This document shows positions 2,589 through 3,592 of a DNA stretch of 26,627 bases, piece after piece; position 1 is the stretch's first letter, and each line of letters starts with the position of its first letter. The translations under genes were made by a program, and so were the position numbers. The stretch lies in the IMG/VR virus record IMGVR_UViG_3300008264_000045, positions 1-26,627 of that record; one strand, written 5' to 3'. This DNA comes from a virus. The notes below the pieces were generated by a model, which worked only from the letters and a program-made list of their open reading frames with translations, was not told the DNA's origin and searched no databases.

Positions 2589-2918
2589 CTATTGAGTATT
2601 CCTGTCTATATTCCTATTAGAAGCCTCTAGCGTCCTAAATACGTCTATCCTTGCCTGTGCTGCTACCAACATCCACCTTAGCCTCTCAGCCTCCTCTACA
2701 GCCTCTCTAAGCCCCTCTACGCACGTTTTATATTCATCTGAAGTATAGGCATCAGCTTCCTTCTCTGCCATTGTATTTTTTAAACTTCTTTGGAATCCAA
2801 TAGCTTTAACCGTTTTACGATGTTCTGTTAAGTAAACAACATCAGATTTAGCCTTGGCATATGCTCCAGCGTTTTTTATTAAAAAATTAATCGCTTCGTT
2901 CGGGTCTATTGTTTTCAT
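2589..2918 (-). CDS. Hypothetical phage protein, ~109 aa (helical)
   Basis: A mostly helical protein. I choose the ATG at 2916-2918, giving MKTIDPNEAINFLIKNAGAY..., because related proteins I recall start here; the AGGA site is rather far away (about 13 bases). The C-terminal segment EEAERLRWMLVAAQARIDVF followed by RTLEASNRNIDRNTQ is the most recognisable part of this uncharacterised phage family. The frame stays open upstream to a TTG at 3023 and, beyond two amber codons, much further (see the upstream region). No enzymatic motif is visible. Confidence 0.72.
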   Translation of the reverse strand: MKTIDPNEAINFLIKNAGAYAKAKSDVVYLTEHRKTVKAIGFQRSLKNTMAEKEADAYTSDEYKTCVEGLREAVEEAERLRWMLVAAQARIDVFRTLEASNRNIDRNTQ

Positions 2919-3298
2919 ATTGCAATCATATTCCTTTAGACAATAAGAGAGGCCAAGAAGGTGATATTCCCATTCTCCAGCCATCCTAATTAGGACTGCT
3001 GCACCCAGAAGGTCTACATTCAATTTCCAGAGCGCCCGTATCGTGGACTATCCGACCATCACCTATTTGCTCTGTTCCTGAGATACCTGTAGCAAGTTCT
3101 CGCGCTGGCCTCTAAAAGCGCACTCGGTTCCCTTGGCAGCAACCCCGAACATGGGTTCATTTCTAACGCGACCAGTACGACCTAGACAATAAAAAAGCCC
3201 TCTAGGTTTGGCTCTCCGTGTGCGGTCACGTTCCCATTTAAGGGATGAGAACCAAAGCTAAAGGGCTTTGATTGTTATCTATGACCGCACATAGACGA
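2919..3298 (-). other. Gene-poor structured spacer with amber-interrupted frame
   Basis: No confident gene lies between the VRR-NUC stop and the start at 2918. On the minus strand it holds a terminator/pseudoknot element (3194-3291), then a 64-codon open frame (3257 to 3063) without an early ATG that contains GRTGRVRNEPMFGVAAKG and LLQVSQEQSK. This frame ends in TAG, is followed four codons later by a second in-frame TAG (3048-3050), and then runs into the 2589-2918 gene. Possible small hairpins: AACCC/GGGTT, GCGCT/AGCGC, TTGCT/AGCAA. The VSQEQSK ending reminds me of the phage P4 Ash family, unverified. An overlapping second frame (MNPCSGLLPREPS...) is also open for 33 codons. Confidence 0.45.
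3191..3269 (-). terminator. Rho-independent terminator with long imperfect stem
   Basis: On the minus strand the arms 3269-3248 and 3215-3194 pair over 22 positions: 19 Watson-Crick pairs, two G-U wobbles (3202/3261 and 3212/3251) and one C/C mismatch. The 3' arm is followed directly by a T run (TTTTTT at 3196-3191, then ATTG). The wobbles are possible only in minus-strand RNA, which supports folding of that transcript. The 32-base loop contains a small TCCC/GGGA hairpin and a 10-mer complementary to 3282-3291. It lies about 30 bases after the VRR-NUC stop, in the middle of the leftward operon. Confidence 0.7.
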
Positions 3299-3592
3299 TC
3301 AAACTATACCAGATAACTTCTTTATTGTGTCAACTGCTTCCTGTGGACTATTTACTACAGTTACTTGCCCCTTCCAATCGTAATGCCAGATAACCTGATC
3401 CGGAGTTAACCTCCTCTGGCTTTCAGGCTTTTCCCCATCCTTAACTTCTAGTAAATAGTTGTTTCCTTTGTAACCTACCAATAAATCAGGGCATCCCTTA
3501 CCTACAGCGTGTAAATGCTGAACAGTAGCCCCTAAGTCTCTTAGTGCTTTGACAACTCTAGTCTGGTTAGAATCTACCTTCTTAAAAACCAT
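3299..3592 (-). CDS. VRR-NUC family nuclease (PD-(D/E)XK)
   Basis: A 97-residue nuclease of the minimal viral VRR-NUC type. The PD-(D/E)XK signature is clear: GCPDLLVGYKGNNYLLEVKDG places P-D at about residues 35-36 and E-x-K at 49-51, after an N-terminal helix with LRDLGATVQHLHAVGKG. Such stand-alone phage VRR-NUC proteins act as structure-specific or Holliday-junction endonucleases, which suits its place in the replication/recombination operon. Length matches the family. The gene follows a small unknown protein with a 1-base overlap and is followed by the terminator-like element. Confidence 0.88.
   Translation of the reverse strand: MVFKKVDSNQTRVVKALRDLGATVQHLHAVGKGCPDLLVGYKGNNYLLEVKDGEKPESQRRLTPDQVIWHYDWKGQVTVVNSPQEAVDTIKKLSGIV

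Follow-up and report, generated by a model that had tools for sequence, protein, structure and literature searches.

The hairpin originally predicted behind a phage nuclease gene is real. It forms the leading portion of a small RNA gene, a mobile one that sits between genes of freshwater phages. Within the window, as we call the whole 26,627-nt stretch of viral DNA analyzed here, sequence comparison indicates that a ten-letter pairing ties the RNA start to a terminator-like hairpin, with matched mutations in dozens of relatives. We give about even chances to a model in which this element acts in cis as the 5′ leader of a mobile phage RNA cassette and attenuates transcription; if so, the leader probably decides whether the structured RNA downstream of it is produced.

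The cassette (positions 2919 to 3302, minus strand) was delimited by locus comparison. It lies between an upstream VRR-NUC-like endonuclease gene (3299 to 3592, minus strand; phrog_93 endonuclease, E 4e-12, the VRR-NUC name being assigned by eye) and a downstream gene of no known family, ORF B (2589 to 2918, minus strand). The cassette is missing from L002, the closest relative (protein identities of 94% and 97%), in which the two flanking genes overlap in a clean empty site; at this overlap the window carries 380 nt, an insertion that separates the two genes. A homologous cassette is present in L005, L006, L133, L108, L119, L121, L136, L129, L104, L109, and L110, while L134 and L003 have only the front part in common, and cassette and downstream gene are co-oriented in 42 of 43 loci. 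Where the nuclease gene meets ORF B, other relatives have longer inserts or various small ORFs, which marks this junction as a cargo hotspot; the small ORFs there differ among L004, L012, L075, L127, and L128. The element is thus not simply a device after the nuclease gene, as originally predicted: it is linked to a promoter and forms the leader of an optional cassette, in which a structured RNA follows it.

A −35-like TTGACA, read from the sequence (3328 to 3333, minus strand), sits inside the 3′ end of the nuclease gene and is followed, after a 19-nt spacer, by a −10-like TATAGT (3303 to 3308, minus strand), which was located by promoter scoring, has an upstream TGG (extended −10), and is set 6 nt ahead of the leader's first base. 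The same spacing recurs in the relatives: the best −10-like box precedes the leader's 5′ hairpin, H1, by 6 nt in 34 of 39 distinct upstream regions. Promoter scores average 9.0 of 12 across these 39 regions and 6.4 (sd 1.1) in shuffles, and scores of at least 9 are reached by 27 of the 39 compared with 3.4% of shuffles. Given this fixed spacing, the σ70-type promoter pattern most likely places the predicted RNA start at 3296, with H1 at the very 5′ end of the transcript.

The leader is about 105 nt long and holds both the pair TGTGCGGTCA/TGACCGCACA and a stem that ends in a U-run (all leader features are on the minus strand). H1 (GUCUAUG-UGCGGU-CAUAGAU, 3277 to 3296), identified by growing-chain folding and covariation, occupies the inferred +1. 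The 5′ strand of the 10-bp helix, TGTGCGGTCA (3291 to 3282), is the exact complement of its 3′ strand, TGACCGCACA (3228 to 3219), as had been claimed, and both strands are further defined by covariation. The minus-strand stem with its six-T run had likewise been called correctly: the 5′ arm (3269 to 3247; complementarity, folding, and covariation) and the 3′ arm (3216 to 3194; complementarity, the upper stem being 99.8% paired) show 87% Watson-Crick complementarity, and the six T of the sequence occupy 3196 to 3191. The stem is also the better one in minus-strand RNA, as expected at the outset, since two of its three non-Watson-Crick positions are G-U there, the third being a C-C mismatch. Its apex is a predicted three-way junction bearing the hairpins H2a (UCCC-UUAAAU-GGGA, 3232 to 3245; from folding) and H2b (CGUG-ACCGCA-CACG, 3217 to 3230; from folding and covariation), and the loop of H2b is the kissing partner of the H1 loop. 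The partner 10-mer had been placed in the loop of the stem; it does lie within the apex, but it forms the loop and stem top of the small hairpin H2b, not a plain loop. The folding energy of the hairpin stretch is −54.7 kcal/mol compared with −30.2 kcal/mol in shuffles (z −6.5; 0 of 200 shuffles as low), and leader nucleotides 1 to 78 alone, closed by the 10-bp helix, reach −32 kcal/mol (z −5.9). The window's leader thus has the GC stem followed by a U-run that characterizes intrinsic terminators, and the complementarity of two hairpin loops, with compensatory changes, that characterizes kissing RNAs.

Pattern scans of IMG/VR yielded 52 distinct copies of the leader, of which 45 were usable for the analysis of self-complementarity and 43 were aligned. 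Own-pair complementarity between the H1 region and the apex is perfect over 10 nt in 36 of the 45, which carry 22 different paired segments, and leaders of different alleles complement one another rarely and mostly by 4 to 6 nt. Across the 43-leader alignment, 98.3% of the cells of the pairing helix are paired, with two-sided changes at five pairs; one helix position shows all four Watson-Crick pairs (UA 16, CG 12, AU 8, GC 5), and so does another (CG 19, GC 16, AU 4, UA 2). The core loop-loop pairs are 99.2% paired, the H2b stem is 100% paired, and the H1 stem is paired in 86 to 89% of cells, with two-sided changes. Over the whole structure, 84 cells show two-sided changes compared with 22.9 in shuffles, counts that are uncorrected for phylogeny, and slid versions of the structure lose pairing. 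Covariation in relatives was the check that the original prediction had named beforehand as decisive if absent, and both helices clearly covary. A U-run of at least five T is kept in 49 of the 52 leaders; in L110, L146, and L153 it has decayed (UUUGUCAUUU) with the loop pairing intact. One leader, L155:9073-9185, combines H1 and H2b loops from different alleles, leaving 6 bp, and is a natural recombinant. The hairpin stems are kept in L109, L311, and L318, where the H1 and H2b stems and an extended 10-bp helix compete for the same bases; this points to a 6- to 7-bp kissing contact in the final fold, and it favors such an end state over a pure antiterminator.

An alternative hairpin was found in the linker and the 5′ arm of the stem. 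The linker before the stem (YYR preceding AAGC) can pair with GCUUUGGU in the same arm, giving the AT hairpin (AAUCAAAGC-CCUUUA-GCUUUGGUU, 3273 to 3250; covariation and folding), which is mutually exclusive with the terminator stem. The evidence for AT is good but weaker: 95.1% of its cells pair compared with 16 to 59% when slid, but the variation is confined to one side of the pairs (C/U against G, A/G against U), and the search pattern had dictated the 3′ strand. The 10-bp helix (P10) and AT, the latter with one-sided changes only, make up a conserved alternative structure that excludes the terminator, as is typical of attenuators. We derived the folding order from minimum-energy folds of growing chains, that is, equilibrium prefixes without pseudoknots or kinetics. 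In these folds, H1 appears at nt 25, H1 and AT at nt 45 to 61, and H1, AT, and H2a at nt 65 to 69; from roughly nt 77 onward, AT and H2a are joined by the 10-bp helix, which closes them into a three-way junction that reaches −35.1 kcal/mol at nt 85 to 93. This state of P10, AT, and H2a is the minimum until nt 96. At nt 97 the terminator is predicted to take over, about 9 nt short of where the U-run (nt 101 to 106) ends. The P10 state precedes the terminator in all 41 leaders for which the correct segment was picked (L109 and L311, where another segment was picked, were not counted). The initial two-state idea, of a helix set against the terminator or a pseudoknot, agrees with the covariation of both helices and with these folds; antitermination itself is what our model proposes.

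Behind the window's leader lies a structured RNA, cargo type a (2936 to 3181, minus strand), with compensatory changes at 18 of 33 predicted pairs in 22 aligned sequences. The window contains no Rfam family at the gathering threshold and nothing convincing up to E 10; it does not match the ROOL or GOLLD models, and its cargo does not match the RF02932 model. We rejected a group I intron as the identity of the cargo, there being no support from Rfam intron models, as well as permissive Rfam matches such as mir-1265 and Phe_leader, whose scores were far below gathering. The association of leader and cargo is modular. Among the 52 window-type leaders, 36 precede cargo type a and three precede RF02932 (L142, L173, and L180; 86.9 to 93.7 bits); three precede a further RNA type and then type a, one that further type cut off by the end of the contig, seven an HNH/NUMOD4 endonuclease (Pfam was run on two), and two something else. 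In L150, L176, and L320, one leader is followed by two different structured RNAs in tandem. The endonuclease gene follows the leader directly in L140, L143, L148, L174, L179 (second copy), L182, and L186, and these versions carry AGAGGG in the 3′ arm of the stem, 7 to 8 nt before the ATG, which could be a ribosome-binding site. The cargo starts about 8 to 25 nt from the U-run, too near for a promoter of its own, and would therefore be made only by read-through.

The design extends beyond leaders of recognizable sequence. A descriptor for a hairpin whose loop complements the inside of a U-run stem gave 80 matches (47 distinct) in 2.4 Mb of fetched sequence compared with 1 in locally shuffled sequence, a count that speaks for specificity and not for frequency because the scanned sequence is enriched for the leader family. 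The same scan revealed no second cassette elsewhere in the window. Leaders without sequence similarity to that of the window were found in L310 (pair GUAGAAGU/ACUUCUAC), L327 (GUGAAGGU/ACCUUCAC), L328 (GUGGAAAAC/GUUUUCCAC), and L025 (CCGGCAAG/CUUGCCGG); the first three precede cargo type a or RF02932, and the RNA behind the last is RF02932-like by eye only. In growing-chain folds of the L310, L327, and L328 leaders, the antiterminator state is favored only briefly. In GenBank phage MW202545, RF02932 (100 bits) comes after an array of five tRNAs and a leader that has this design but an unrelated sequence; the record (L328, 1456 to 1573, MW202545.1) annotates hypothetical proteins over RF02932. 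When the cassette and four relatives were compared with GenBank phages by blastn, RF02932 in MW202545 was the only match. No kissing-loop leader accompanies the RF02932 copies of bacterial genomes, and one such genome (G323) holds three copies without the phage leader (L329, L333, and L334), one of them below the gathering score. We discarded the non-type-I scan matches L141-, L204, L223, L266, and L321- as probable chance hits within coding-like sequence, two matches from the pattern scan of genome contigs as chance hits in coding sequence, and matches to the pattern GCTACAGGTA... as mostly due to chance.

In the mechanism that we propose, H1, AT, and H2a would fold first as the RNA polymerase advances, and the H1 segment would then pair over 10 bp with the H2b segment, closing a three-way-junction antiterminator. 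The 3′ arm would have to displace AT to form the terminator, and the predicted crossover lies about where the terminator would decide. One outcome would be a stop that releases the ~105-nt leader RNA, in whose end state the 6- to 7-bp kissing contact between H1 and H2b can persist; the other would be read-through into the cargo, which is a structured RNA here and RF02932 or an HNH nuclease elsewhere. We thus infer an antiterminator role for P10 and AT, control of read-through by the leader, and a part for the kissing contact. An efficient unconditional terminator at this place would leave the cargo silent, and probably the operon behind it as well; the need for read-through, together with the conserved mutually exclusive structures, makes an attenuator the simplest reading.

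It is somewhat unlikely that leader and cargo instead form one long noncoding RNA, in which the kissing-loop stem serves as a structural domain at the 5′ end and the U-run stem causes little or no termination. Such a continuous RNA would fit the unrelated leaders of the same architecture that directly precede RNAs of this kind, the constant proximity of the cargo, and the decayed U-runs of L110, L146, and L153 despite intact pairing; it is at odds with the retention of at least five T in 49 of 52 leaders, with an HNH ORF rather than an RNA behind seven of them, and with the bacterial RF02932 copies that lack such a leader. The promoter at a fixed distance, the U-run, and the compact covarying fold could also describe a stand-alone small RNA gene of ~105 nt with its own promoter and terminator, in which kissing stabilizes the RNA or presents a loop to a target and the cargo is a separate gene riding along. 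We regard this as unlikely, given that there is no room for a promoter of the cargo's own, that the cargo is tightly associated across leader types, and that the loops are already occupied by self-pairing.

The variable loops might also act between molecules, such that sibling cassettes or coinfecting phages regulate or exclude one another and alleles diversify against crosstalk. The 22 paired segments, the different alleles in the sole two-leader contig (L179), and a loop diversity that recalls antisense-RNA loops would suit this idea, which is nevertheless very unlikely, as the complementarity is intramolecular, a single allele turns up at different sites and in front of different cargo, and no antisense transcript was found. 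For the HNH versions, the positions of AGAGGG and ATG in L140 and L143 would allow the stem to act mainly on translation by hiding the ribosome-binding site, a form of control known for phage homing endonucleases (PMC2988022); as an account of the feature it is very improbable indeed, being inapplicable to noncoding cargo such as that of the window. Finally, an ordinary terminator after the nuclease gene accompanied by a chance 10-mer is hardly credible: the stem and U-run resemble an intrinsic terminator, but the covariation, the 80 versus 1 scan matches, and the empty site contradict it.

Beyond the window, we tentatively propose, at somewhat less than even odds, that these elements represent a widespread and undescribed kind of phage RNA gene, composed of a promoter, a kissing-loop attenuator whose loops change fast but always match each other, and exchangeable structured RNAs as cargo, the orphan RF02932 among them; the gene would spread as a cassette between phage genes and share its leader with homing endonucleases. 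In a literature search that covered few subscription papers, and not the original publication of many Rfam motifs, we found no paper naming RF02932 and no phage leader of such design. If the proposal is true, the decision of an attenuator would rest on a loop-loop contact that evolution has repeatedly rewired yet kept matched, and the attenuator would be placed before a noncoding RNA and not before protein genes. RF02932 would gain a phage genetic context (leader, promoter, and cassette) and with it a way to test its function, and the natural matched alleles would offer a ready collection of candidate orthogonal RNA parts.

Among known systems, attenuators of the riboswitch or leader type resemble the window's element in that hairpins formed early in a leader close to the promoter preclude a U-run terminator; here, by contrast, the 5′ loop and the terminator loop form a covarying contact, the cargo is a noncoding RNA or a homing nuclease, there is no Rfam match, and no ligand is known. 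The PeSL cassettes of T4-type phages likewise consist of a mobile promoter and stem-loop between phage genes, in unrelated phages, and we know of no loop-loop pairing or RNA cargo in them. The put RNA of HK022, which is not known to have a built-in U-run terminator, unlike the window's leader, is similar in design, being a two-hairpin promoter-proximal phage RNA that affects termination, as is predicted here. This nascent RNA of ~70 nt, with its two hairpins just downstream of the promoter, modifies RNA polymerase and affects termination (PMC9378689). T4-type homing endonucleases are preceded by hairpins that hide the ribosome-binding site (PMC2988022), comparable to the stable hairpin before HNH nucleases in seven relatives, whereas the window's leader precedes a noncoding RNA. 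ROOL and GOLLD are structured phage RNAs of unknown function, often near tRNAs, with covarying kissing loops (PMC12286853); they share the presence of such loops with the window's element, and the relative L328 also follows a tRNA array, but they are far larger, make intermolecular contacts, and belong to other Rfam families. RF02932 (Betaproteobacteria-1 RNA), finally, is itself a cargo, lying behind the window-type leader in L142, L173, and L180; in L328 it follows a different leader.
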